The notes under the pieces: generated by a model
What the model saw: only the letters and a program-made list of their open reading frames with translations
Told to the model about the DNA's origin: nothing
Database searches by the model: none
Assembly: GCF_031764535.1 (NCBI RefSeq)
Contig: NZ_CP134499.1
Span: 2,976,001 to 3,040,000, forward strand
From: Pseudomonas sp. SG20056
GTDB lineage: Bacteria; Pseudomonadota; Gammaproteobacteria; Pseudomonadales; Pseudomonadaceae
Direction: 5' to 3'
Length of the DNA stretch: 64,000 nt
Made by a program: the position numbers and the translations under genes
Part shown: positions 8,861-34,797 of the stretch, piece after piece
How the letters are laid out: each line of letters opens with the position of its first letter
Numbering within the stretch: the first letter of the stretch is position 1

Positions 8861-8901
8861 ATAAACAACAAACACCGCACTTGGCGGGGTTTGTTGTTTA
8901 T
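8861..8901. terminator. Bidirectional terminator between bfrB and grxD
   Basis: A perfect 13-bp outer stem (8861-8873 with 8889-8901) plus an inner CCGC/GCGG pairing, with AT-rich arms on both sides. It sits between two convergent genes. Confidence 0.8.
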
Positions 8902-8915
8902 GCAGTCGGCTTAAC

Positions 8916-9242
8916 TTAGGCGTCGGCTTTCTGCACAGCGTCCTTGATCAGGGTCTGCAGCTCACCCTTTTCAAACATTTCCACCAGGATGTCGCTGCCG
9001 CCGACCAGCTCACCACCGACCCACAGCTGCGGGAAGGTTGGCCAGTTGGCGTATTTGGGCAGGTTGGCACGGATTTCCGGGTTTTGCAGGATGTCGACGT
9101 AGGCGAATTTCTCGCCACAGGCCATCACAACCTGCGCAGCTTTGGAGGAAAAGCCGCACTGCGGAGCGTTCGGCGAGCCTTTCATGTACAGCAGAACGGT
9201 ATTTTTAGCGATCTGCTCTTTGATGGTTTCGATGATATCCAT
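8916..9242 (-). CDS. grxD: Monothiol glutaredoxin GrxD
   Basis: A 108-residue CGFS-type glutaredoxin. Cys29 lies in the motif PQCGFSSKAAQ, and the GSH-binding segments WPTFPQLWVGGELVGG and SDIL follow. The family carries glutathione-ligated [2Fe-2S] clusters and delivers them in iron-sulfur assembly, which fits the neighbouring iron genes. Confidence 0.95.
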   Translation of the reverse strand: MDIIETIKEQIAKNTVLLYMKGSPNAPQCGFSSKAAQVVMACGEKFAYVDILQNPEIRANLPKYANWPTFPQLWVGGELVGGSDILVEMFEKGELQTLIKDAVQKADA

Positions 9243-9362
9243 TGGGCACCTCAGGACTTAACTTCCCGACTCACGGGTCGGCACGGTGGCGGCATTGTAG
9301 CGAAAAGCCGAGCGCAATGCTCGGCCTTCCCTGCCACATTCCTTGCGCCGAATGTCAGCCGC

Positions 9363-11471
9363 TCAAGCAGCCTCAACCTGTACCGGAACGCCGTTCAACG
9401 CCGCATTACCGGACAGGGTATCGAGCTGCCGCTCATCAGTCAGGTCATTGGCGCTGGCGCCTGGCTGTTCGCTGGCGATGCTCATCTGCACACCGGGACG
9501 CGCATGCCCCCAGCCATGCGGCAGGCTGACCACACCGCACATCATTTCATCGCTGCCGACCACTTCCACCTCGATCACCCCCACCCGCGAACGCACGCGC
9601 ACCCGCTGACCATCGGTCAGCCCACGCTGGCTCAGATCCGCCGGATGCATCAGCAGCTGATGGCGCGGCTTGCCTTTAACCAGGCGATGGTAGTTGTGCA
9701 TCCAGGAGTTATTGCTGCGCACATGGCGACGACCAATCAGCAGCAGCTCGTCCGACTTGGCCGTTGGCTGCTCAGCAAAGCGCTGCAAGTCGGCCATGAT
9801 CACCGCTGGCGCCGCCTGAATCCGCTTGTTGGCGGTTTTCAGGCGATTGGCCAGATTGGGCTTGAGTGCGCCCAGATCGAGGCCATGCGGGTGCTCGCGT
9901 AGCGCCGCCAACGACAGCTTATGTTCCGACTTGTCGCCGTAAGCGCCAAAGCGCAGGCCCATGTCGATCATCTGCTCGGGAGCCATGGTCGGCTTGAGCT
10001 CCACGCCAGTCTTGGCGGCAAAGGCCTTGGCCAGGCTGACGAAAATTTCCCAGTCATGCAGCGCGCCGGCAGGTTTGGCCAGCACCGCTTCGTTGAAGCG
10101 GGTGACATTACGCACCGCGAACATATTAAAGGTGGTGTCGTAGTGATCGTGTTCCAGCGGCCCGGTCGGCGGCAGGATCAGGTCGGCATAACGGGTGGTT
10201 TCGTTGATGTAGAAGTCGATGCTGAGCATAAACTCCAGACCATCCAGCGCCTGCTCCAACTGCCGGCCGTTGGGTGTGGACAGCACCGGGTTACCCGCCA
10301 CAGTGATCAGGGCGCGCACCTGCCCTTCACCCTCGCTGAGCATTTCCTCGGCCAGAGCCGACACCGGTAATTCGCCGCCGTACTCCGGCAAACCGGACAC
10401 GCGGCTCTGCCAGCGATTGAAGTGCCCGCCTGAAGTCGAGGCAACCAGATCCACGGCTGGCTCGGTGCACAACACACCGCCAACGCGGTCGAGGTTGCCG
10501 GTGACCAGGTTGATCAGCTGCACCAACCACTGACACAACGTGCCGAAGGCCTGGGTAGAAACGCCCATGCGCCCGTAGCAGACCGCAGACTCGGCAGCAG
10601 CAAAATCCCGCGCTAACTGGCGAATCGTCTGCGCTGGCACGCCACAGCGCACGCTCATGGCTTCGGCGGTAAAGCCGGCAATCGCCTGACGCACGTCATC
10701 CAACCCATCGACGGTCAGGTGGCTGGCGCGGCCAAGGTTTTCCTCAAACAGGGTATTGAGCAAACCGAACAGCAGCGCAGCATCCTGGCCGGGACGGACA
10801 AATACATGCTGGTCGGCAATCGCGGCGGTTTCGCTGCGCCGCGGGTCGACCACCGCCAGTTTTCCACCACGTTTCTGGATGGCCTTCAGGCGCTTTTCCA
10901 CATCCGGTACGGTCATGATGCTGCCGTTGGACGCCAGCGGGTTGCCGCCGAGAATCAACATAAAGTCGGTGTGGTCGATGTCCGGAATCGGAATCAGCAG
11001 GCCATGGCCATACATCAGGTGGCTGGTCAGGTGATGCGGCAGCTGATCGACCGAGGTAGCGGAATAACGGTTACGGGTTTTCAGCTGGCCGAGAAAGTAG
11101 TTGCTGTGGGTCATCAGACCGTAGTTGTGCACACTCGGGTTGCCCTGATAGACCGCCACGGTGTTCTGCCCGTGCCGCGCCTGCAGCTCACTCAGGCGCG
11201 TGGCCACCAACTCAAAGGCGTCATCCCATTCGATGGCTTGCCACTCATTGCCCACCCTGCGCATGGGCTGACGCAGGCGGTCGGGATCGCTCTGGATATC
11301 CTGCAGCGCTACGGCTTTGGGGCAGATATGGCCACGGCTGAAGCTGTCCTGGGCATCGCCCTTGATCGAGCGGATCTGCGTGGAGCCGTCATCCTGTACT
11401 TCGGTTTCAATGGTCAGGCCACAGATGGCTTCGCAGAGATGGCATGCACGGTGGTGGAGGGTCTTGGTCAT
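9363..11471 (-). CDS. Molybdopterin-dependent oxidoreductase, substrate unknown
   Basis: A 702-residue protein of the prokaryotic molybdopterin oxidoreductase family. ATG 11471 gives the N-terminus MTKTLHHRACHLCEAICG; earlier codons have no family match. Cys10, Cys13, Cys17 and Cys50 (HICPKA) form a 4Fe-4S site. Domains in order: Fe-S N-terminus, large MGD-binding region, then the C-terminal dinucleotide-binding barrel from about residue 580. There is no twin-arginine signal, so it is probably cytoplasmic. At the position that aligns with the Sec/Cys ligand of formate dehydrogenase I read Asp142 (SVDQLP). No partner subunit lies nearby. Confidence 0.85.
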   Translation of the reverse strand: MTKTLHHRACHLCEAICGLTIETEVQDDGSTQIRSIKGDAQDSFSRGHICPKAVALQDIQSDPDRLRQPMRRVGNEWQAIEWDDAFELVATRLSELQARHGQNTVAVYQGNPSVHNYGLMTHSNYFLGQLKTRNRYSATSVDQLPHHLTSHLMYGHGLLIPIPDIDHTDFMLILGGNPLASNGSIMTVPDVEKRLKAIQKRGGKLAVVDPRRSETAAIADQHVFVRPGQDAALLFGLLNTLFEENLGRASHLTVDGLDDVRQAIAGFTAEAMSVRCGVPAQTIRQLARDFAAAESAVCYGRMGVSTQAFGTLCQWLVQLINLVTGNLDRVGGVLCTEPAVDLVASTSGGHFNRWQSRVSGLPEYGGELPVSALAEEMLSEGEGQVRALITVAGNPVLSTPNGRQLEQALDGLEFMLSIDFYINETTRYADLILPPTGPLEHDHYDTTFNMFAVRNVTRFNEAVLAKPAGALHDWEIFVSLAKAFAAKTGVELKPTMAPEQMIDMGLRFGAYGDKSEHKLSLAALREHPHGLDLGALKPNLANRLKTANKRIQAAPAVIMADLQRFAEQPTAKSDELLLIGRRHVRSNNSWMHNYHRLVKGKPRHQLLMHPADLSQRGLTDGQRVRVRSRVGVIEVEVVGSDEMMCGVVSLPHGWGHARPGVQMSIASEQPGASANDLTDERQLDTLSGNAALNGVPVQVEAA

Positions 11472-11780
11472 GGCCGGGCCTCTTGTTTTAACGCGATGCA
11501 CTGAGCACCGTAAAAACATGACTATGGCGGCTGGTGCAGACCTGCGCCAGCAGGGTTCGCTACGTGAATTGCGCGGCATCAGGTCAGCAGATAAATGGTC
11601 CCCGCGCCAACACCACGCGCCTGAAAACAGCAGGCAATTTGCGCCTGATCGGCGTTTGCTTATAAGATCGCGACTTCCCCGTTTCGTCGCATAGTGCGGC
11701 CCCCCAGCCGCAGGTTCTGCCGTTTCTTCTATTTAATTAGGCCATTGAACCTGCGCCCAGCTGTCAAAAGGTAGTTAACG
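11472..11780. other. Intergenic region with the likely argF promoter
   Basis: This 309-bp divergent region separates the oxidoreductase from argF. A possible promoter is TTGCGC (11639-11644), 16 bp, TATAAG (11661-11666), giving a leader of about 110 bases for argF. I found no convincing ArgR site and no small gene with a ribosome binding site. Confidence 0.35.
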
Positions 11781-12697
<917 letters not shown>

Positions 12698-12701
<4 letters not shown>

Positions 12702-13804
12702 GCCAGCCTCTGCTGAACCTGCGCGAGCTGAGCTGCGGCTACCCCGGTCACAAGGTGGTGCAGAATCTTAATCTGCATCTGAATGCCGGCGATATCGGCT
12801 GCCTGCTCGGCCCTTCGGGTTGCGGCAAGACCACCACATTGCGCGCCATCGCCGGTTTTGAGCCGGTGCTGGAAGGCGAGATCCAGCTGGCCGATCAGGT
12901 CATCTCCAAGGCAGGCTTTACCCTGGCTCCGGAAAAACGCCGGATCGGCATGGTGTTCCAGGATTACGCGCTGTTCCCGCACCTGAGCGTGGCAGAGAAC
13001 ATCGGCTTCGGCATCCGCAAACAAACCAATTGCGAGCGGGTTACCCAGGAGCTGATGGAGCTGGTCAAGCTTGGCCACCTCGGCAAGCGCTACCCACACG
13101 AGCTGTCCGGTGGCCAACAGCAGCGCGTGGCCCTGGCCCGTGCGCTGGCGCCGGAACCACAGCTGCTGCTGCTTGATGAGCCGTTTTCCAACCTGGATGG
13201 CGAGCTGCGCCGGCGCTTGAGCCATGAGGTGCGCGACATTCTCAAAGCCCGTGGCACCAGCGCGATTCTGGTCACCCATGATCAGGAAGAAGCCTTCGCC
13301 GTCAGCGACCACGTCGGCGTATTCAAGGAAGGCAAACTGGAGCAGTGGGACACCCCGTTCAACCTCTACCACGAACCACTGACGCCGTTTGTCGCAAGCT
13401 TTATCGGCCAGGGCTATTTCATTCGCGGCCAGCTGCTTAGCCCGGACTCGGTACAGACCGAACTGGGCCTGATTCGCGGCAACCGCGCCTACACCTGGCC
13501 AACCGGCAGCGCGGTCGACGTGCTGCTGCGTCCAGACGATATCGTCTATGACCCAGACAGTACGCAAAAGGCGCTGATCGTCGGTAAGACCTTCCTCGGC
13601 GCCGCCACCCTGTATCGCCTGCAACTGCCCACAGGCAGCCAGCTGGAATCGATCTTCCCCAGCCATGCCGATCACCTCCCCGGCCAGCAGGTCGGCATTC
13701 GCGTCGCCGCCGACCATCTGGTGGTGTTTGCCGCACCCGGCAGCATCGCCGCCCAGGTCAACCTGGGTGAGTCGGGCGTGCGTCGCTACAGCAGCGACAG
13801 CTGA
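12698..13804 (+). CDS. ABC transporter ATP-binding protein (FbpC/PotA type)
   Basis: A 368-residue ATPase. Walker [10 protein letters not shown] is near residue 38, followed by Q-loop [12 protein letters not shown], signature LSGGQQQR and Walker B LLLLDEP. The extended C-terminal region is the TOBE-type regulatory domain of the iron/polyamine importers. It overlaps argF by ATGA, so it is translated with it. No permease or binding protein lies beside it, so its substrate cannot be read from the context. Confidence 0.88.
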
Positions 13805-13805
13805 C

Positions 13806-14606
13806 CTACCGCAACAGTAACCGGCCACTGGCAATCAACAGCGCCTGGCCGGCAATCTTTACCCGTTCACCAACCAGTTCACAGTGCAACTCGCCGCCGC
13901 GTGCCGAACACTGGAAAGCAGTCAGCTGGGTCTTGTCCAAGCGCTGCGCCCAGTAGGGGGTAAGGATGCAGTGAGTCGAACCGGTTACCGGGTCTTCATT
14001 GATCCCGATAGACGGCGCAAAGTAACGCGAGACGAAGTCATGCTGCTCACCGGGGGCGCTGATCAGCAAGCCCAACCCCGGCAACGTGGCCACAGCGGCC
14101 AGATCCGGCTTATACGCTCGCACCGCCGCTTCGTTAGGCAGAACCGCCAGCAATTCCTGAATCCCCTGCCCTTCATGCAGCGCCAACACACTGTCCACCG
14201 GCAAACCCAGCACCCGCTCAACGTCTGCGTGTAAGTCGCACGACTGCGCGCGGCGCACAGGGAAATCCAGCACCAGCATGCTGCCTGCGCGACTGACCCG
14301 CAGCGCACCCGACAAACAGGTGAAATCAAGCACATCACCCGGCTCACCGTAGACCTCGAACAGCACATGGGCACTGGCCAGGGTGGCGTGGCCGCACAGC
14401 GGCACTTCCGCCGTTGGGGTAAACCAGCGGATATGCCAGGCCGCGCCTTCCTTCACTACAAAGGCGGTTTCCGCCAGGTTGTGCTCGGCGGCAATCTGCT
14501 GCATCAGGGCATCGTCCAGCCAACGATCCAAGCGATAGACCATCGCTGGGTTACCGGTAAACGGTTGCGAGGCAAAGGCGTCGACCTGGTGAAATTCAAG
14601 CTGCAT
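13806..14606 (-). CDS. PhzF-family isomerase-like protein
   Basis: A 266-residue member of the PhzF/diaminopimelate-epimerase fold. ATG 14606 has GGAG 8 bases upstream; a GTG three codons earlier overlaps that site. The conserved Glu of HNLAETAFV, the GHATLASAH motif of the first half and DPVTGSTH of the second half are present, so it is probably catalytic. Known members isomerise small acids such as in phenazine synthesis, but most are uncharacterised. There is no phenazine gene here. Confidence 0.85.
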   Translation of the reverse strand: MQLEFHQVDAFASQPFTGNPAMVYRLDRWLDDALMQQIAAEHNLAETAFVVKEGAAWHIRWFTPTAEVPLCGHATLASAHVLFEVYGEPGDVLDFTCLSGALRVSRAGSMLVLDFPVRRAQSCDLHADVERVLGLPVDSVLALHEGQGIQELLAVLPNEAAVRAYKPDLAAVATLPGLGLLISAPGEQHDFVSRYFAPSIGINEDPVTGSTHCILTPYWAQRLDKTQLTAFQCSARGGELHCELVGERVKIAGQALLIASGRLLLR

Positions 14607-14740
14607 GGGGCGCACTCCGGGTTCTTCGTGCGTTTAAGCATGCCGAAAACAGACTCGACATGCCCACTACAGCGGCGGCCAATTACAGCCATACAGCAAG
14701 CCCACAAACACCAATCGATGAACATACACCCTACCAACTG

Positions 14741-15517
14741 TCAGGGTCCCTGTACCCCATAAGCGTCCAGTAAAGCCTGCAGACGGCCGTTGGCCCGATA
14801 GCGCTGCACACCCTGTTCAAACAATGCGACATAGCGCGGACTGGATTCCAAGGCAGGCGAAAACGCCAGGTAGATCGGCACATCCGGGCTGCGGCAGCCG
14901 GCCTCACGCAGCGCACCAACCCGCCCCTGGCTGGCCAGCATGGCTTGCATCACCCAGGCGTTTTCCAACACCACATCCACACGATCATGCGTCAGTTTGC
15001 CGATATTCAAGACCAGCGCCGTATCACCGGCGGCAATCTGAATGCGCTCGCTGTCGCTGTGATGCAGGGCGATATAGGCGTTCAGTTCATCGCCGTAGCT
15101 GTAGTCATTGATCACCCCAAGGCGCTGTCCGGCGAGCGAGGCGGTACCAGTAAAGCGCCAGGTCGAATCCGGCAAGGTGAAAAAGCAGTTACGTGACGAC
15201 GCCACGGGCGTGGTGCCAAAGAGAAAGTCCGGCGCATCCTCGACGCCCGCGCCGATCGCCGCATTCAAGTGCCCACGACGCACCTGTTGCAGGGTGCGTG
15301 CCCAGTTCAGCGCCTGGTACTGCACCTCGATACCGGATTCGGCAAAGATCTCCCGCGCCAGCTCAACAAAGATGCCTGGCCGCTCTGAGCCTGGCTGACA
15401 ATTAACCGGGCACCAGATATCCCCGGCGATCACCAGCGTCTCTGCCCGCGCCCAGCCGGCAAAACCAAGCAGCGTCAGCAACACTCCACGAGCAACCAGC
15501 TGACGGCATATCGACAT
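14741..15517 (-). CDS. Periplasmic solute-binding protein, family 3-like, orphan
   Basis: A 258-residue exported protein. The start at 15517 has GGAG 6 bases upstream. A signal peptide runs to about residue 25 (AGWARA), then ETLVIAGDIWCPVNCQ begins the mature protein. The two-lobe binding fold is suggested by GIFVELAREIFAESGIEVQY and GQRLGVINDYSYGDEL. No permease or ATPase is adjacent, so it may feed a distant transporter or a sensor. It follows glpK by 45 bp in the same direction. Confidence 0.75.
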   Translation of the reverse strand: MSICRQLVARGVLLTLLGFAGWARAETLVIAGDIWCPVNCQPGSERPGIFVELAREIFAESGIEVQYQALNWARTLQQVRRGHLNAAIGAGVEDAPDFLFGTTPVASSRNCFFTLPDSTWRFTGTASLAGQRLGVINDYSYGDELNAYIALHHSDSERIQIAAGDTALVLNIGKLTHDRVDVVLENAWVMQAMLASQGRVGALREAGCRSPDVPIYLAFSPALESSPRYVALFEQGVQRYRANGRLQALLDAYGVQGP

Positions 15518-24792: not shown

Positions 24793-26640
24793 GTGCCTGC
24801 ACGCGCCGCCTCGCGCCGGTTTCGCCACAGCCTCGGCGGGCTCTGCCTGCTGGCGCTGCTTCTACTTCCCCTGCTGCATCTGTGGCCCGCGCTCAGCGGG
24901 TTGAACAACGCCCACCTCGACTGGTTGATCCGCAAGCGCGCCGCCGAACAGACGCCTGACCCACGGCTGCTGCTGATTGATATAGATGATCTGAGCCTGC
25001 AAGTGCTGGCCGGTGAAGCCGGTAAATGGCCGTGGCCGCGCTCGCTGCATGGCGAACTGCTGGAATACCTGCTCAGCCAACAGCCCAAGGCCGTGGCCTT
25101 CGACATCCTGTTCAGCGAGCCCGACCAGTTCAACCCGGACGCCGACAGCTACTTTGCCGAGGTGCTGCAACGCAGTTCCAACACCTACCTCGCCGCCCTG
25201 GTGCAGCAAGCCGACGAAGGCAGCCAGCCACCACTGCTGCGCGACTATCCTGCAGCAACCTGGCAAGCGCCAGGGCAACGCGGCGCGGACGATCAACGCG
25301 GGCTCCTTCTGCTGCCCAACGCCTTCCCCAGCGAGCTGTGGCGCCTGGGCAGCATCAACTTTCGCCCGGATGCCGACGGCATCGGTCGGCGCTATGAACT
25401 GTACCGCAGCTTTGCCGACTGGCGCCTGCCCAGCATGCCTGCGCGTATCGTGCATGACCTGACTGGCAACTTGCCGCAGCAGCAGAATCTGCTGCTGGAC
25501 TGGCCCGGCACCAGCCGCTTGCCCTATCCACGCCTACCCTACGCGGCGGTACTGGCGGCGGCGCGCAATCAGGGCGAGCCGCTGGCAGCCGAGCTGTTCA
25601 AGGATCGCATCATCGTGATCGGCACCACCGCCGCCGGCCTGCACGACCTGCGCCCCACCCCGCTGGATACCCTCTATCCGGCGCCCTTTATCCTGATGAC
25701 AGCCATCGACAACCTGCTCAACAACAGCCAACTGCATGAGGCTGATAAATGGTTTGAGCTGCTCGGCCCGCTGCTGCTGTTACTTGGCCTGAGCCTTCTG
25801 CTGCTGCGCGAACAGCTGCCGGCGGCTTTTGCCCTGTGCCTAGGCGGCAGCCTGGCGCTGCTTGTCGGCAGTTACTGGCTGGCCTTGCAGGGCACGCTGC
25901 TTGGCGTGCTGCCGGGGCTGATCTGCCTGTGGCTGCTGCTGGCGGCGGCACTGGCACTGTTCTATCTACGCCGGCGCCAGCAATTGCAGGACACCATTCG
26001 CCTGTTCAGCCGTTTTATGGACCCGGTGGTGGTCAATCAACTGGTATCGCGCGACGACCCGGAAGCCCTGCTGGCAAGCAAGGAATGCCAGCTCACCGTG
26101 CTGTTTTCCGATATCCGCAGCTTTACTACCCTCTCTGAGCAACACACGCCAAGCGAAATCGTGCACCTGCTCGAAGGTTATTTCAGCAGCCAGGTGGAGG
26201 TGCTGTTCAAACACCAGGCGACCCTCGACAAGTTTATCGGCGACGCCATCATGGCCTTCTGGGGCGCGCCACTGGATAACCCACAACAGGCCGACCAAGC
26301 GATTCTGGCGGCCATGGAAATGCTCGATAACCTCGACGCCTTTCGCCGCGATTACAACTGCCCGGATTTCGACATCGGCATCGGCCTGCACACGGGACCA
26401 GCGGTCGTCGGCCTGGTCGGCGCAAAGCAGCGCTATGACTACACTGCAATAGGCGACACGGTGAACCTTGCCAGCCGCATCGAAGGGCTGACCAAGGGCC
26501 GCGCCCATCTGCTGATTTCTGCCGCCACCCGTGAGGCCTGCACGCTCGATCTGGACTTCGTGCCCCAGGGCGAACACCAGGTAAAAGGTCGCGCCGAAGC
26601 CGTAATGCTCTACGAACCGCGAAGGAGACATGATGAATAA
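24793..26640 (+). CDS. CHASE2-domain class III adenylate cyclase
   Basis: A 615-residue membrane protein with a GTG start and AGGAG upstream. An N-terminal membrane helix (16-32), a periplasmic CHASE2 sensor (about 45-310), three helices (about 322-392) and a C-terminal class III cyclase follow in order. Metal ligands are Asp440 (FSDIRSFT) and Asp484 (DKFIGDAIMAFWG). Lys480 and Thr551 (YDYTAIGDTVNLASR) are the adenine-specifying positions, and Asn558 and Arg562 stabilise the transition state. It should therefore make cAMP in response to an unknown outside signal. It overlaps the next gene. Confidence 0.9.
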   Translation: MPARAASRRFRHSLGGLCLLALLLLPLLHLWPALSGLNNAHLDWLIRKRAAEQTPDPRLLLIDIDDLSLQVLAGEAGKWPWPRSLHGELLEYLLSQQPKAVAFDILFSEPDQFNPDADSYFAEVLQRSSNTYLAALVQQADEGSQPPLLRDYPAATWQAPGQRGADDQRGLLLLPNAFPSELWRLGSINFRPDADGIGRRYELYRSFADWRLPSMPARIVHDLTGNLPQQQNLLLDWPGTSRLPYPRLPYAAVLAAARNQGEPLAAELFKDRIIVIGTTAAGLHDLRPTPLDTLYPAPFILMTAIDNLLNNSQLHEADKWFELLGPLLLLLGLSLLLLREQLPAAFALCLGGSLALLVGSYWLALQGTLLGVLPGLICLWLLLAAALALFYLRRRQQLQDTIRLFSRFMDPVVVNQLVSRDDPEALLASKECQLTVLFSDIRSFTTLSEQHTPSEIVHLLEGYFSSQVEVLFKHQATLDKFIGDAIMAFWGAPLDNPQQADQAILAAMEMLDNLDAFRRDYNCPDFDIGIGLHTGPAVVGLVGAKQRYDYTAIGDTVNLASRIEGLTKGRAHLLISAATREACTLDLDFVPQGEHQVKGRAEAVMLYEPRRRHDE

Positions 26641-28061: not shown

Positions 28062-30020
28062 TCAATGGGTGTGGGGATGCTCAAGGGTGCAGGATGGCTC
28101 GTAATCGCACACATGGTGGCTAAACGGTGAGGTGGTGTGCGAGCCAGGCGCACCCGTCACCTGGAAGCAGCGGCTGGCGATAAACAGCTGCACCAACTCG
28201 GCATCGAGCAAACCGCTCTGCGCCTCACTCTTGAGAATATCCAGCGCCCGCTCCAGGGGCATTGCAGGTTTGTAGGGGCGATCCGCCGCGGTCAACGCAT
28301 CGTAGATATCGCAAATGGTCATGATCCGCGAAGCGCAGGGAATCGCATCGCCAATCAAGCCTTTGGGGTAACCGCTCCCATCGAGTTTTTCGTGGTGCGC
28401 CCCGGCAATATGCGGCACGCCCTGCAGATCCGGAGTCCAGGGAATCAGGCTGAGAAACTGCTGGGTGTGCACCACATGGCGCTCGATTTCTTCGCGCTCA
28501 GCCGTGGTCAGGCTGCCCTTGCGTACGGCCAGAGCACTGAACTCGCCCTCACTAAGCAGGCTGACCAGGCAATTGCCGGGTGCCTTGACCAGCTCGCCTT
28601 GCACTTCCTGCAGATGCTGGAAATCCCCCTCACTGAGCATGCTTGGCTCGTTGGCCTGAATAATGTTGTTCAGGTAACGCTCCAGGCGCTCGCATTCATA
28701 GGCCAACTCGGCTTCCAGTTGCAGGCGCCGCTCATCACTCAGGCCGCCCTGATGTCGGTAGGCATGCAGCATCTTGCGCAGGGTCTGGTTACGCAGGTTT
28801 TCCTGGGCCAGGGCAACGCGATAGCGCAGGTTTTCCAGCACCTGCTCAGGAAGCTTCTTGGCCTTGACCAGCACATGTTCGCGCACCCCGACCTTGCCGA
28901 AATCATGCAGCAAAGCGGCGTAGCGCAGCTCGCGCAAACCATCGACGCTCAGCGCCTGTTCGCGCAAGCGGGCTTCTGGGGCGTGGGGCAACTGGTTGGC
29001 CAGGGTCAGGCACAGCTCGGCAACCCGAAATGAATGGCCACTGGTGGTCGGATCACGCTGCTCGATGGCAAACACCGAGGCCTGCACGAAGCCGTCGAAC
29101 AACCGGCTGATGTCATCCAGCAGCTGACGATTCTCGATCGCCACCGCCGCCTGGCTGGCCAGCGCGCGCAGCGACACGGCGGTTTCCTCATCAAAGGCAA
29201 TCAGTTCAGGCTCAAGCTGCTCGCTGCCTTTACGCTGGCAGTTGATAAATTCCAGCACGCCGACCACTTCATGGCGATGGTTGCGCATGGGGATCGCCAG
29301 GATCGACATGGTGCGGTAGCCCATCTGCAGGTCGAAGGAACGGTTGAAGCGATACGGCGCATCGGCAGCAATCGCATACACGTCCTCGATATTCAGCTCG
29401 GTGCTGGTCAGCGCGACGTAACCGGCAATAGACGCCTTGCTCAGCGGCATGCGCTGGTCCTGAAAGCTGTTCTGGCTGAGCGTGCCGTTCTGCGTCAGTT
29501 TGAAGATCAACTGTGCCGGCGCATCCGGCCGGCGGCTGACCAGAAACAGCGAGGCGGCGTCGCTGTTGGACAAGCGCCGCCCTTCGATCAGGATCTTTTC
29601 CAGCAAACGGTCAAGGTCACGCTCGGCCGATAGCGCCAGGCCCACGTCTACCAGCTTGCTCAGGTCATCATGCTTGCCCGCCAGGGCGGCGGCCAGTTGC
29701 TCGGTCTGATGGCGCAGGCTGTACTGCTCACCGGCAAAGCGCAGCAACGCCGATAGCTCCTCGGCACTGGCATGCGGCGGCAACGGCAGCACACCGGGCT
29801 GATCCATACAGCCCACCAGAATAGCGCCGCAATCCAGCCAGTCGGTCAACGACTGCAGCGCCAGCAACCTTTCGTCAAGCAGCACCAGCGCCAGGTCATC
29901 CGGCAACTCGTCAGGCGCGTCAATCGCCTGCAAAGTCAGCGAACACTGAGCCAATACGTTGCACAGGGGATGCGCGTCAAGCGCATTACTGTGGCCCAGC
30001 ACAAGGCGGGAAGTGCCCAT
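28062..30020 (-). CDS. GAF / HD-GYP domain protein (cyclic di-GMP phosphodiesterase type)
   Basis: A 652-residue protein. The start at 30020 has GAGG upstream; the longer frame is rejected. An N-terminal receiver-like segment (about 5-95) lacks a clear phosphorylation site. A GAF domain (about 125-300) follows, then an HD-GYP domain. The HD pair is 372-373 (LLHDFGKVG), and HHE at 542-544 leads into DGSGYP ending at 552. HD and HHE are about 170 residues apart where about 60 is usual, because about 110 residues are inserted between two copies of the linker-like segment. It is convergent with the cyclase operon. Confidence 0.85.
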   Translation of the reverse strand: MGTSRLVLGHSNALDAHPLCNVLAQCSLTLQAIDAPDELPDDLALVLLDERLLALQSLTDWLDCGAILVGCMDQPGVLPLPPHASAEELSALLRFAGEQYSLRHQTEQLAAALAGKHDDLSKLVDVGLALSAERDLDRLLEKILIEGRRLSNSDAASLFLVSRRPDAPAQLIFKLTQNGTLSQNSFQDQRMPLSKASIAGYVALTSTELNIEDVYAIAADAPYRFNRSFDLQMGYRTMSILAIPMRNHRHEVVGVLEFINCQRKGSEQLEPELIAFDEETAVSLRALASQAAVAIENRQLLDDISRLFDGFVQASVFAIEQRDPTTSGHSFRVAELCLTLANQLPHAPEARLREQALSVDGLRELRYAALLHDFGKVGVREHVLVKAKKLPEQVLENLRYRVALAQENLRNQTLRKMLHAYRHQGGLSDERRLQLEAELAYECERLERYLNNIIQANEPSMLSEGDFQHLQEVQGELVKAPGNCLVSLLSEGEFSALAVRKGSLTTAEREEIERHVVHTQQFLSLIPWTPDLQGVPHIAGAHHEKLDGSGYPKGLIGDAIPCASRIMTICDIYDALTAADRPYKPAMPLERALDILKSEAQSGLLDAELVQLFIASRCFQVTGAPGSHTTSPFSHHVCDYEPSCTLEHPHTH

Positions 30021-30129
30021 GGTGGTTGTCCTCAGTCGCAGTTGCGTGACAGCAGTGCGACTGAGTATTGCACAGGATTTTGCCGCTGCCCGGCCGTCCG
30101 GCGCATGCCGGATAACCTGACAAAATGGC

Positions 30130-31467
30130 TTAGCTAGCGGGCTGCAGCTGCATGCCTTGCTGCATTTTCGCGGCATCGGCGACGAAGCAGCGCGAGGCCT
30201 GCAGCAGCGCCAACATGGTCAGCATCAAGGCCACCGGAATCAGATACATGGCGTTATGCAGGCCCACGGCCTTGAAGGTTTCGTTCATTTCACTGGCCCC
30301 GGCAGCGAGCATTGCCGCGTGGGAATAGTGATCCGACAGCATGCCCACCGCCAATGGGCCAAGGCCGCCACCGAGCAGGTACAGACCGGCGAAGAACAGC
30401 GCCATGGCGGTAGCACGCAGACGCGGTTCGATCACATCCTGAATCGCGGTATAAACGCAGGTATAGAAGTTGTAGGCAAACAGCCAGCCGATGCTGAACA
30501 GCGCCACGAACACGGCGATCTCAATTCGCCCGGCCAACAGGGCGTAGCCCGTGGCGACAGAGGCTATCAACATGCTCAGTGCGGCAAACAGCAGGCGGCC
30601 GGTCTGCCAGCGTTGATGGATCTTGTCCGCCAGCCAACCACCCAGGGTCAGGCCAATCAGGCCGGTCAAACCAACGATCACCCCGGTGGCCATCGCCGCC
30701 TGTTCCAGCGGCATCAGGAAGTAGCGCTGCAGCATCGGCACCATGAACGAGTTGCAGGCATAGGTGGCGAAGTTGAAGGCCAGGCCGGCCATTACCAACC
30801 ACCAGAAGGTACGGATCGCCAACACCTTACGCAGCGGTTTATCCACTGCTGTGGTGCGCGATTGCACCAGCTCGGCCGCACCGCGCTTGGGCTCTTTGAT
30901 AAAGAACATAAACAGCGCCAGGATCAGCCCCGGCACTGCTGCAATAAAGAACGGTGCACGCCAGCTGTCGAACGCCTTGACCATCGCACCGATGGTAAAG
31001 AACGCCAGCAGCAGGCCGATCGGCAGGCCAAGCATAAAGATACCCATGGCCCGCGCACGCTTGTGCGCCGGGAACAGATCACCGATCAGCGAGTTGGCCG
31101 CCGGCGCATAGCTGGCCTCACCAATGCCGACGCCCATGCGAATCAGCAGGAAGCTCCAGAAGTTCCAGGCCAGGCCGTTGACCGCCGTCAGCCCGCTCCA
31201 GACGGCCAAACCCCAGCCCATGATCTTGCGCCGCGCGCCGGTATCAGCCATGCGCCCCAATGGAATACCGGCAATCGCATAGACAATGGTAAAAGCGGTG
31301 CCGATCAAGCCCAGCTGCAAGTCGCTGAGATCCCACTCCATGCGGATCGGCTCGATGATGATCGCTGGAATGGTGCGGTCGAAGAAATTGAACAGGTTGG
31401 CGAGAAAAAGCAGGAACAGAATGCGCCAGGCATTCGCCGCTTGTAGGGACTGCTGCATGGAATCCAT
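30130..31467 (-). CDS. MFS transporter, spinster-like
   Basis: A 445-residue protein with about 12 membrane helices. Helix 1 carries LFNFFDRTIPAIII and the loop 2-3 motif is GRMADTGARRKIMG, both typical of the spinster group of the major facilitator superfamily. The substrate is unknown. ATG 31467 is used; ATG 31458 is better spaced from AGAG and may be the real start. It is divergent from the tubulin-like gene. Confidence 0.85.
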   Translation of the reverse strand: MDSMQQSLQAANAWRILFLLFLANLFNFFDRTIPAIIIEPIRMEWDLSDLQLGLIGTAFTIVYAIAGIPLGRMADTGARRKIMGWGLAVWSGLTAVNGLAWNFWSFLLIRMGVGIGEASYAPAANSLIGDLFPAHKRARAMGIFMLGLPIGLLLAFFTIGAMVKAFDSWRAPFFIAAVPGLILALFMFFIKEPKRGAAELVQSRTTAVDKPLRKVLAIRTFWWLVMAGLAFNFATYACNSFMVPMLQRYFLMPLEQAAMATGVIVGLTGLIGLTLGGWLADKIHQRWQTGRLLFAALSMLIASVATGYALLAGRIEIAVFVALFSIGWLFAYNFYTCVYTAIQDVIEPRLRATAMALFFAGLYLLGGGLGPLAVGMLSDHYSHAAMLAAGASEMNETFKAVGLHNAMYLIPVALMLTMLALLQASRCFVADAAKMQQGMQLQPAS

Positions 31468-31768
31468 CTCTATTTGTTGTTATCGAAGCAGGTCGGAGGC
31501 GCATGGCCAACCGCCGTATCCAGCATGTGCAGGCGCAATCTAGAGCCTTGCGTCTATGCTGTCTGTGACTATTTGTTGCGTGTATGCCGGGTAATGGGCG
31601 TCCGAGCAAGCACCCAAGTCACAAAGCGCATCAGAAAAACTCCGGATATGCCTCAGTAAAACCATGTGAAACAGCGAGATTTTCCATTTTTCATGCTACA
31701 AACAAGCCTGTTGAGCGAAATGTGGCCATTTGCCGCTCTACCCTCGTTAGCCGCCGGACTGTCTCTAA
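31468..31768. other. Intergenic region upstream of the tubulin-like gene
   Basis: A 301-bp divergent region. The right half (about 31650-31768) is markedly more AT-rich than its surroundings and probably holds the promoter of the plus-strand gene. I could not pick out a confident -35/-10 pair. There is no Shine-Dalgarno sequence before ATG 31769, and an in-frame TAA lies directly before it. No small gene was seen. Confidence 0.3.
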
Positions 31769-33967
31769 ATGAAAACAAAAAAAGACGCTGTGACCACCCC
31801 CGCGACCGAAGCCACACTGGCTGACCTGGCTGATACCCTGCTCGCCCCACTCGAACGTCCCTCCCCACTACAGCCCCCCATGCGGCTGGATAGCAGTGGC
31901 GAGCAGTACATGTATTTCACCGAGCGCGACATTGATCGCATCCTCGATAACCTCGACGGCCTGCGCAGCCTGGTATTTCCCCCAGCCCCGCAGGATGACG
32001 ACAACGAACGGCGGGTGCAGCACTTCCCCTCCGTTTGCCTGATAGGCCTGGGCCGCTGCGGCTCGAACATCGCACTGGATGTTGCATCGCTGGTCTACAA
32101 CGCCCGGCAGTTCTACCTGAGCGAATTCAACAACGAAGAAAAAACCGTTGCCGAACAGGATTTCCGCCCCACCCGCTGGATTCGCAGCAACCTGCTGCGC
32201 GCACCGAGCAAGGACAGCAAGCCGGTCTTTCTGATCGAACCACTGGTCATGCTCGGCGACCTGGACAAGGACATCGAGGGGCGCATCCGCTTCTCACGCA
32301 AAGGCGAAACCAGCGGTTTTCTCAGCGACTACAGCAAGATGAAGATCATGGACCTCTCCGAGGTGCATGCGGGCGGTGCCGGTAACGCGCCGATCCTCGG
32401 TCAATACCTGGCCAAGATCATCCTTAACAAGGACACCCAGCGTTTTACCAACGAAGACTGGAAATTCATTCACAGTTACCTGATCGATTCGTGCGGCATC
32501 AAGGCCAACCAGTCGCGCCTGTACTTCTATATTTTCAGCGCCGGCGGCGGCACCGGCTCGGGCATGGCGTCGGAGTTTGGCCTGGCCCAGCAGTTCGCCT
32601 ACATGAGCAAGACCTTCGATACCAAGAACTTCGACGAAAGCCCGGAGAACCGCGACCACAGCTTCGTCTTCGAGCCGATTTTCACCAGCGGCATCTGCAT
32701 CCTGCCGAACATCTCCGACCAGCGCAGCGAGATGTCTGAAGCCCTGCATATCAACGCCGGCCGCCTGCTGTGCAAGTACCTCGCAGAAGAATGGGACTTC
32801 TCCTACAACTTCGACAATGAAGAAAACAGCGAAGAAAGCGTGATGCGGCGCATCCGCCCATGGAACGCCATGATGCTGATCTCCAACGACATCATGCGTT
32901 ATGCCGAAGAAAGCGATGACGGCAATATCCAGAACATCGACGTCAACGCCATGGAGCGTCACGCCAACCAGTACATCTCGCAGCAGATCTTCAACATCCT
33001 CACCGCCCAGGCGGTGACCACCGACTACGACCAGAACTATTTCCGCCGCGCGGGCATCGACATCGGCGAAACCATTCGCCTGGACGCCAACGACCTGTTT
33101 ATGAGCCTGGCCGGCCCGGTGGCCGTGGCCTACGCCGAATCGGTGGTGCCTGAGCAAAGCGCTGCGACGCTGGAGAAGTTCCGCGTGCTGGACAAGGAGC
33201 CGTCGCGGCTGAACATTGACGACCTGTTCTTCCGCTCCATCGACCTGCCGCACTTCAACAAGGTGACCCAGGCCATCGAAGGCATCAGCCTGCTGCCGAT
33301 CGAGTCCAAGCGTTACCGCGAAGCGCTGGATGAGTACAAGAAGTCCGATTACAACGCTGCCAAACTCAGCGACCTGCACTTCTTCAAGAACTGCTCCTCG
33401 GTGGTCTCGATTGTCTCGCTGCCGAAAGACTACAAACTGTCCTATATGGACCTGAACCGGCTCAAGACCCACCTCAACAGCCTGTTTCCCAACACCACGC
33501 TGAAGCGCTATGCGCTGGTGATCGGCGCCTCGGCCAACCTCTCGCTGACCACTTTGATTGCCAAGAGCCCGTGCCTGTCGGATGACTTCCTGACGCTGAT
33601 CGTGGCCTTTATCAAGCGCTGCTTCGCCCGCGACCCGCACCGCTTCGACGAAAGCCTGGACAACGCCATTCTCGACTTCATCATGAGTGATGAGTTCGAT
33701 GAAGTGCGGGTCGACGCCATGCTCAACGAATACGAAAACCCAGCGAAGATCCTCGACACCAACTGGTACGCGATCAAGCCGATGTATGAGAAGAAGTACC
33801 GCGAGCTGATCCACGATCAGGACAAATTCGTCTCGATCAACGATATCCGTCTATCCCGTGAAAGCGTGAAAAAGGCGATCAAGTACCTGCGCGAGATCTA
33901 CCGTCACCGCATCGGCAAGACTCGGGTTATCTCGCTCAACAAGTACGCTGAAGACAAGCCCGAGTAA
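31769..33967 (+). CDS. Divergent tubulin/FtsZ-superfamily GTPase-like protein
   Basis: A 732-residue protein I could not match to a named gene, but with the nucleotide loops of the tubulin/FtsZ fold in the right order. T1-like LIGLGRCGSNI is at 91-101, T3-like HAGGAGNAPILG at 200-211, and T4-like FSAGGGTGSGMA at 256-267, close to FtsZ GGGTGTG. LISNDIMRY (370-378) resembles the FtsZ IPND helix-7 region. The T7-like segment RLDANDLF (437-444) keeps the D-x-x-D spacing of the catalytic aspartates. It is much longer than FtsZ because of a C-terminal region of about 280 residues. It is predicted cytoplasmic: no signal or membrane helix is seen. There is no partner gene in an operon. The most likely Pfam match is the tubulin-like family Tubulin_2; this is from memory. 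Confidence 0.8.
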   Translation: MKTKKDAVTTPATEATLADLADTLLAPLERPSPLQPPMRLDSSGEQYMYFTERDIDRILDNLDGLRSLVFPPAPQDDDNERRVQHFPSVCLIGLGRCGSNIALDVASLVYNARQFYLSEFNNEEKTVAEQDFRPTRWIRSNLLRAPSKDSKPVFLIEPLVMLGDLDKDIEGRIRFSRKGETSGFLSDYSKMKIMDLSEVHAGGAGNAPILGQYLAKIILNKDTQRFTNEDWKFIHSYLIDSCGIKANQSRLYFYIFSAGGGTGSGMASEFGLAQQFAYMSKTFDTKNFDESPENRDHSFVFEPIFTSGICILPNISDQRSEMSEALHINAGRLLCKYLAEEWDFSYNFDNEENSEESVMRRIRPWNAMMLISNDIMRYAEESDDGNIQNIDVNAMERHANQYISQQIFNILTAQAVTTDYDQNYFRRAGIDIGETIRLDANDLFMSLAGPVAVAYAESVVPEQSAATLEKFRVLDKEPSRLNIDDLFFRSIDLPHFNKVTQAIEGISLLPIESKRYREALDEYKKSDYNAAKLSDLHFFKNCSSVVSIVSLPKDYKLSYMDLNRLKTHLNSLFPNTTLKRYALVIGASANLSLTTLIAKSPCLSDDFLTLIVAFIKRCFARDPHRFDESLDNAILDFIMSDEFDEVRVDAMLNEYENPAKILDTNWYAIKPMYEKKYRELIHDQDKFVSINDIRLSRESVKKAIKYLREIYRHRIGKTRVISLNKYAEDKPE

Positions 33968-34014: not shown

Positions 34015-34797
34015 TCAGGCCTCTTGCCATTCACTCAGCCAGCCCAGGCTGGCCTGGGTGCCCGCCTCTCCCGGCCGATACTCGGCCGCCAGCCACCCCT
34101 GATAACCACTGTCACGCAGCGCCTTGAGCAGCGGCGCAAAGTGCAACTCGCCTGTTCCCGGCGCACCACGCCCTGGGTAATCGGCAAACTGCACATGGCC
34201 GATACGCCCGGCCAACAACGCCATACCCGCCGGCACATCCAGGCCCTGCCGCGCCATATGGTAAAGGTCGTACTGCGCTGCCAGGTTGGGGTGGGCCACC
34301 GCCTTGAGCAACGCATCCAGCTGCGCTGGGGTGTTGATCAGAAAGCCTGGCATATCCAGCGGGTTGATTGCTTCCACCACCACGCCAATGCCCAATCGCT
34401 GAAAGGCCTCGGCGGTCTTGCGTAGGTTGTCGATCAAACAGGCCATTGCTTGTTCAGGCTCTACGCCCTCGGCCAAACGCCCCGGCAGCACATTGACCAG
34501 CGCTGGCCGCACCATAGCGGCATAACTCAGCGCATCCTGCAACGCAGCCTCAAACTCGGTCTGATGTACAGGTACGGCCGCCAGGCCGGCACCGCCACTC
34601 ATCAAATCACCAGCCGGCAGGTTGATCAGGCGCAGCGGCATGCCCGCTGCCTCCAGCGCCTCTTTCAAGAGAAGCGCCGGCAACTCGTAGGGAAACTGGA
34701 TTTCCACGCCATCAAAGCCCGCAGCAGCGGCAGCCACCACACGGTCGATCAGCGGCAACTCGGTAAACAGCAGCGACAGGTTGGCCGCAATCTTCAT
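34015..34797 (-). CDS. hyi: Hydroxypyruvate isomerase family protein
   Basis: A 260-residue sugar-isomerase TIM barrel. MKIAANLSLLFTELPLIDR and GFDGVEIQFPYELP match the Hyi/OtnI group, with metal-binding Glu in VVEAINPLDMPG and the His in QYDLYHMARQG. The family interconverts hydroxypyruvate and tartronate semialdehyde. It overlaps the upstream reductase by ATGA. Its usual partner gcl (glyoxylate carboligase) is not here. Confidence 0.85.
   Translation of the reverse strand: MKIAANLSLLFTELPLIDRVVAAAAAGFDGVEIQFPYELPALLLKEALEAAGMPLRLINLPAGDLMSGGAGLAAVPVHQTEFEAALQDALSYAAMVRPALVNVLPGRLAEGVEPEQAMACLIDNLRKTAEAFQRLGIGVVVEAINPLDMPGFLINTPAQLDALLKAVAHPNLAAQYDLYHMARQGLDVPAGMALLAGRIGHVQFADYPGRGAPGTGELHFAPLLKALRDSGYQGWLAAEYRPGEAGTQASLGWLSEWQEA

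Follow-up and report, generated by a model that had tools for sequence, protein, structure and literature searches.

FtsZ carries its conserved motifs in the order T1, T3, T4, T6, T7, and in both FtsZ and tubulin the T7 aspartates act on the nucleotide of the neighboring subunit, completing its catalytic site. The tubulin superfamily also includes TubZ and PhuZ, GTPases of plasmids and phages. In 2010, Makarova & Koonin described two new FtsZ-like families, FtsZl1 and FtsZl2 (PMC2875224). According to the available portions of that paper, FtsZl2, with PFL_1302 of P. fluorescens Pf-5 as its type, is a proteobacterial family that retains T1, T4, T6, T7 and H7, has no coiled-coil domain, contains family-specific inserts between T1 and T4, and ends in a C-terminal region of ~300 aa without similarity to other families (PMC2875224). 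The same portions give an HHpred similarity to PF00091 with E 0.0033, state that filaments are expected for FtsZl2, and associate no gene neighbors with it (PMC2875224). A 2023 study, in the part of its text available, excluded divergent FtsZ-like sequences carrying Tubulin_2 (PMC9871819). The literature that we searched yielded no functional study of FtsZl2 after 2010, and PFL_1302 was named there only in PMC2875224.

The window, a 64,000-nucleotide stretch of the Pseudomonas sp. SG20056 genome, holds a gene that is very probably an FtsZl2 orthologue (Table 1), judged by the published family description. With LISND taken to be the T6 motif, the nucleotide-domain motifs T1, T4, T6, and T7 are present in 150 of 150 family proteins. 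The 289 residues that follow T7 match no Pfam family above its cut-off (the best is Imm42, with 15.9 of 27.2 bits) and bear no likeness to the FtsZ C-terminal domain, in line with the ~300-aa region described as unlike other families. Our assignment of LISND agrees with the retention of T6 reported for FtsZl2, and the window family further resembles FtsZl2 in its presence in Marinomonas and P. fluorescens, two taxa that a figure legend of the 2010 paper names, in combining T1, T6, and T7 with GGGTGSG, in being encoded by a solitary gene, and in its long C-terminal region (PMC2875224, available portions). P. fluorescens HK44 carries a relative of the window gene (L140), and Marinomonas has relatives at L098 and L112. 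The initial annotation had called the role of this gene 'undescribed', a word that no longer fits, since such a family was already published as FtsZl2 in 2010 (PMC2875224, available portions). The membrane-shaping role that it suggested is conjectural.

Table 1 Features of the FtsZl2 locus, in window coordinates.
Feature	Position	Strand	Remarks
GAF-HD-GYP-type protein, likely c-di-GMP phosphodiesterase	28062..30176	-	Pfam HD_5, HD, GAF; second gene upstream
MFS transporter, divergent upstream neighbor	30130..31467	-	Pfam MFS_1, E 1.5e-48
Element CATGCTACAAACAAGC, possible extended -10 promoter	31692..31707	+	Largely conserved, 10 hand-picked Pseudomonas loci
Element TGTGGCCATTTGCC, possible operator	31721..31734	+	Near-palindrome TGGCCAATGGCC in some relatives
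FtsZl2-type tubulin-superfamily gene, 732 aa	31769..33967	+	Open frame, uninterrupted
T1-like nucleotide loop GLGRCGSN	32045..32068	+	Res. 93–100; invariant in 30-sequence alignment; pattern 150/150
T3-like loop GGAGNAPILG	32372..32401	+	Res. 202–211; 150/150 with A or S at 204
T4 signature GGGTGSG	32543..32563	+	Res. 259–265; 150/150
LISND, T6-like, precedes helix H7	32876..32890	+	Res. 370–374; 150/150
T7-like RLDANDL, D-x-x-D	33077..33097	+	Res. 437–443, D439 and D442; 150/150
Presumed hyi, convergent, 47 bp downstream	34015..34797	-	Open frame

Strong purifying selection acts on the reading frame, with dN of 0.009–0.095 versus dS of 0.48–0.77 in five comparisons. Frame and motifs, when re-read, agreed with the initial annotation in coordinates, strand, length, and motif order, and its identification of a large tubulin/FtsZ-superfamily protein is borne out by the five motifs, which all 150 of the homologues counted carry in sequence order. 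We regard the window gene as a real, conserved member of the tubulin superfamily, and the reading of its predicted product as a GTPase is well supported by the sequence; GTP binding, also proposed earlier, is very likely from the nucleotide-loop motifs. The highest 19-residue Kyte-Doolittle mean of the protein is 1.38. Because it has no hydrophobic stretch of membrane-helix length, we read the product as cytoplasmic, and it looks soluble.

The window protein shares the T1, T3, T4, T6, T7 order with FtsZ, and its T4 can also be aligned with that of FtsZ. Unlike FtsZ, it has no detectable FtsZ C-terminal domain, and it is ~330 residues longer than the FtsZ frame of its own genome (399 aa). FtsZ is separate and present: a profile search (E 0.001) of this genome returned a single PF00091 match, taken as FtsZ, at 3570865, ~560 kb from the window gene at 3007769.

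The motif census covers 150 proteins from 153 loci, without the truncated L034, the broken L054, and L061, which lacks an N-terminal part; many of the loci are close kin or come from a genome that was reached twice, and 114 remain after dereplication. The T4 count is not fully independent, T4 being one of three alternative anchors that placed the gene in its locus. In an alignment of 30 sequences, 69–96% identical to the window protein, the five motifs are invariant except for A or S at residue 204 in T3. The T3-like loop of the Cellvibrio and Bowmanella members (L103, L114, L121) reads GGSGNAP in place of GGAGNAP.

Pfam profiles reach the window protein under their curated cut-offs, with 13.9 of 27 bits for Tubulin_2 and 13.8 of 33 bits for Tubulin. 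At E up to 1, likewise below cut-off, the two profiles match 30 of 30 family members (best E 2.7e-4), and these matches sit around T1 and T3–T5 with their order kept. The best-matching stretch for Tubulin is T4 in nine of ten relatives and T1 in the window protein. Tubulin_2 (PF13809) stays under its cut-off in the 11 proteins with scores and has no match at E 0.001 in the window's own genome. The likeness of the window family to FtsZl1/Tubulin_2 thus lies in sub-threshold matches over T3–T5 (30 of 30, E up to 1). In FtsZl1, as described in the available portions of the 2010 paper, T6-H7-T7 could not be identified (PMC2875224), whereas the window family retains T6-H7-T7 and scores below the PF13809 cut-off.

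Compared with 30 FtsZ sequences, the family profile aligns over 15 columns, little beyond the T4 loop, and beats 60 of 60 column shuffles; the reverse direction gives 45 columns with E 0.0017 for a single comparison. Residues ~465–615 were considered as an FtsZ-like C-terminal domain and rejected, 30 of 60 column shuffles scoring as high. PADLOC and PHROGs gave no match to the window protein, and NCBIfam gave a single line of 12.3 bits versus a cut-off of 96. A sequence search of solved structures returned unrelated proteins, the best at E 0.13 (single protein) and 0.4 (30-row profile). AlphaFold2 models were of low confidence, with a pLDDT of 37 at full length (30 sequences) and 35 for the GTPase part (36 sequences).

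Relatives occur in 86 of 194 genomes around that of the window, itself included, and 83 of the 86 belong to the same genus, in which the gene is common. The class sample yielded 2 of 369 genomes with a relative and the phylum sample 9 of 398, each count including the window's genome. Among targeted groups, FtsZl2 was present in 29 of 48 genomes of the Marinomonas family (f26), 11 of 12 of family f242 (the broken copy of G912 counted), two of six of family f14, and one of three of the order of G228. GTDB contigs contain at least 372 confirmed stretches. The 80 of these kept with names all come from Gammaproteobacteria, among them the genera Pseudomonas, Atopomonas, Alkalimonas, Arsukibacterium, Rheinheimera, Marinifaba, Marinomonas, Paraglaciecola, Cellvibrio, and Bowmanella. 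Phages, plasmids, and an IMG/VR pattern scan returned no FtsZl2 relative. The window family thereby differs from TubZ and PhuZ: the collections of phages and plasmids gave no match to it, and it shows chromosomal synteny. FtsZl2 is broken or truncated in G912, G068, and G076. Because many genomes do without the gene and decayed copies exist, FtsZl2 is dispensable. The G912 locus (L054) holds FtsZl2 in several pieces at ~8900–11700, with a frame resembling a GDSL hydrolase between them.

The 2010 paper, in its available portions, names no genes associated with FtsZl2 (PMC2875224); in contrast, parts of the window family have recurring GGDEF neighbors. A GGDEF gene lies on the same strand within 1.3 kb in 79 of 150 loci (56 of 114 after dereplication). 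This adjacency recurs in both Pseudomonas and Marinomonas and is new relative to the 2010 family description, and the literature searched contained no paper that we found on a tubulin-like or FtsZ-like gene paired with a GGDEF or MHYT gene. Among the 150 loci, the MHYT type is upstream in 44 and downstream in 8, the Amt type upstream in 5 and downstream in 16, and the NMT1 type upstream in 3 and downstream in 3; length and EAL content served to assign the types, with eight exemplars checked by Pfam, and the MHYT and Amt proteins, which shared one BLAST cluster via their GGDEF-EAL part, were split by length.

Spacings were measured from the stop codon to the first ATG of the next gene. One large Pseudomonas clade (44 loci) has a same-strand MHYT-GGDEF-EAL gene upstream, at 99–349 bp in 17 loci and at 829–988 bp in 27, the longer spacing mostly holding a dehydrogenase-like gene on the opposite strand. 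The P. chengduensis/alcaliphila clade (8 loci) has this gene downstream, at 60–65 bp in seven loci, and the frame in L069 is interrupted. NMT1-GGDEF genes in other Pseudomonas lie 90–124 bp downstream (3 loci) or 136–137 bp upstream (3 loci, two genomes). Marinomonas has an Amt-PAS-GGDEF-EAL gene, downstream of FtsZl2 in one clade (16 loci, 229–271 bp in 14 of the 16) and upstream in another (5 loci, 191–260 bp). The short spacings are compatible with co-transcription of FtsZl2 and the GGDEF gene. The contrasts between upstream and downstream may each rest on few events, the upstream NMT1 arrangement being seen in two genomes only.

Two Marinomonas loci, L031 and L098, have FtsZl2 and the Amt-PAS-GGDEF-EAL gene in swapped order, with the strand kept and identical outer genes, which we take to be ppx and mnh. 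Swapped gene order may reflect a new pairing or a local rearrangement. In L031 and L098 it could have come about by re-insertion or by duplication plus loss.

Twenty-four gene families are an immediate neighbor of FtsZl2 in two or more loci, and three of them are GGDEF families. Each of the three GGDEF types is found upstream of the gene in some loci and downstream in others, always on its strand, and 0 of the 21 other families occur on both sides (Fisher p 0.0005); GGDEF accounts for 3 of the 9 codirectional recurring families (binomial p 1e-4; 4e-4 at a 1.7% background) and for 3 of all 24 (binomial p 0.002; 0.008 at a 1.7% background), the test having been picked after the neighbors were seen, which makes these p values optimistic. 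The GGDEF background is 1.07% of genes (1248 matches in 116.8 Mb), sampled from the 25 genomes reached by 26 loci with one gene per kb assumed.

Our reading of the whole, held tentatively and at somewhat under an even chance, is that FtsZl2 is a cytoplasmic, probably polymerizing GTPase working with membrane-bound c-di-GMP enzymes. We favor a polymer working with such enzymes because the nucleotide loops and T7 are invariant, the protein looks soluble, and the recurring partners are membrane GGDEF sensors, with output domains predicted to make or degrade c-di-GMP. The strongest hint at its job comes from those clades that have a recurrent codirectional partner, which in several cases is a membrane-anchored sensor with a GGDEF output domain. 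As the nucleotide loops are invariant, FtsZl2 is predicted to bind GTP through T1–T4, and as the T7 aspartates are invariant, it would very probably assemble head to tail; GTP hydrolysis and polymerization are what we infer from these residues. A GTP-driven polymer or scaffold could form under the inner membrane, where it would be controlled by c-di-GMP enzymes or would position them, and a surface or motility response would thereby be organized in space. FtsZl2 would act as a dispensable accessory beside normal FtsZ, alone or with proteins encoded elsewhere.

A physical or regulatory coupling of FtsZl2 to c-di-GMP, which gene adjacency suggests, is possible but on the doubtful side. We consider it unlikely that a constant tubulin-like filament is wired to c-di-GMP through exchangeable sensors of the MHYT (gas), Amt (ammonium), and NMT1 (ligand) types. 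If the pairing is functional, it would tie a cytoskeletal element to a bacterial second messenger, and the strains with adjoining genes are where to look for FtsZl2 function. If it is not, the family is still a named but uncharacterized one, now with a distribution and a motif census.

A polymerizing GTPase could instead have a structural job unrelated to c-di-GMP (shape, envelope or membrane remodeling, positioning of complexes), at a locus that tolerates GGDEF genes, a reading that we rate as possible and distinctly short of an even chance. It gains from the 70 of 150 loci, the window copy among them, that lack a GGDEF gene within 1.3 kb. GGDEF neighbors were absent from 10 of 10 intact f242 loci and from the Rheinheimera, Cellvibrio, Arsukibacterium, and Marinifaba loci examined; the Bowmanella locus ends directly after the gene. 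No neighbor common to all genera was seen among the loci compared. The initial annotation had looked to a taxonomic survey for a constant neighbor, and the outcome is divided: a GGDEF neighbor class recurs in parts of the family and is absent beside the window copy.

The structural reading gains further from inheritance. We looked for the Amt-GGDEF-EAL gene (E up to 1e-150) in 48 genomes of the Marinomonas family. It is carried by 25 of the 29 that have FtsZl2 and by 15 of the 19 that lack it, so that the two are not co-inherited; in the 25 genomes with both, they are adjacent or within ~0.9 kb in 20. MHYT-GGDEF-EAL is also present in several genomes lacking FtsZl2. Six Pseudomonas loci examined that lack FtsZl2 still have the MHYT-GGDEF-EAL gene near DUF2288 and liv, and two such Marinomonas-family loci still have the GGDEF gene between mnh and ppx. 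The GGDEF gene therefore does not need FtsZl2, and FtsZl2, which can be missing while the GGDEF gene retains its outer neighbors, is an optional companion of it. Tolerance alone, however, hardly explains three differently built GGDEF proteins, all on the strand of the gene and each found on either side of it. In Alkalimonas (L086), a Reg_prop-Y_Y_Y-GGDEF gene (12100–15144, minus strand) is convergent with FtsZl2 at a distance of 27 bp, the one case among the 150 loci of a GGDEF neighbor on the opposite strand, and it is absent in the close relative L076.

FtsZl2 might instead stay monomeric and form no polymer, acting as a GTP-switched regulator whose pocket is tubulin-like. The inserts between T1 and T4 described in the available portions of the 2010 paper (PMC2875224) could block filament contacts, as could the long C-terminal part unlike the FtsZ C-terminal domain. 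The D-x-x-D of T7 is nevertheless invariant in 150 of 150 proteins and the 2010 authors, in the same portions, expected filaments (PMC2875224), which makes a monomer rather improbable. A chromosome-captured defense or phage-related tubulin (PhuZ/TubZ-like) is hardly credible. In its favor, the gene is solitary, patchy outside Pseudomonas (the class sample had it in 2 of 369 genomes, the window's own included), and decayed in G912, G068, and G076. Against it, the gene has no match in phages, plasmids, the IMG/VR scan, PADLOC, or PHROGs, and several Pseudomonas loci have it in synteny, between rapA and liv.

The window copy is chromosomal and solitary, flanked by a divergent MFS gene and by a convergent frame that we take to be hyi (hydroxypyruvate isomerase), as had been annotated from the outset. 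In the locus scan, the GAF-HD-GYP gene is the window copy's sole c-di-GMP-type neighbor within 10 kb; the next gene of this kind, a GGDEF gene, lies 11.5 kb downstream.

Sigma-54 and FliA patterns occur upstream of FtsZl2 in 0 and 1 of 150 loci, respectively, not above shuffles. A scan for the sigma-70 consensus gave a single site, within the gene, and Rfam had no match in 21000–45000. The region 31680–31768 is conserved in 10 Pseudomonas loci, all hand-picked on the window's side of the tree, and comprises CATGCTACAAAC, the near-palindrome TGGCCA-A-TGGCC, and GCCGGA directly before the start codon; a promoter and an operator may lie here. The elements are not evident in L066, L091, L140, and L100. 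In TGTGGCCATTTGCC, the TGGCCA-T-G-CC columns are invariant across the 10 aligned Pseudomonas loci. CATGCTACAAACAAGC occurs once in the window, and its designation as an extended -10 promoter is a guess. Farther upstream, between rapA and the HD-GYP gene, 24793–26640 resembles what we presume to be a CHASE2 sensor adenylate/guanylate cyclase, beside SH3-like and M48-like protease genes.
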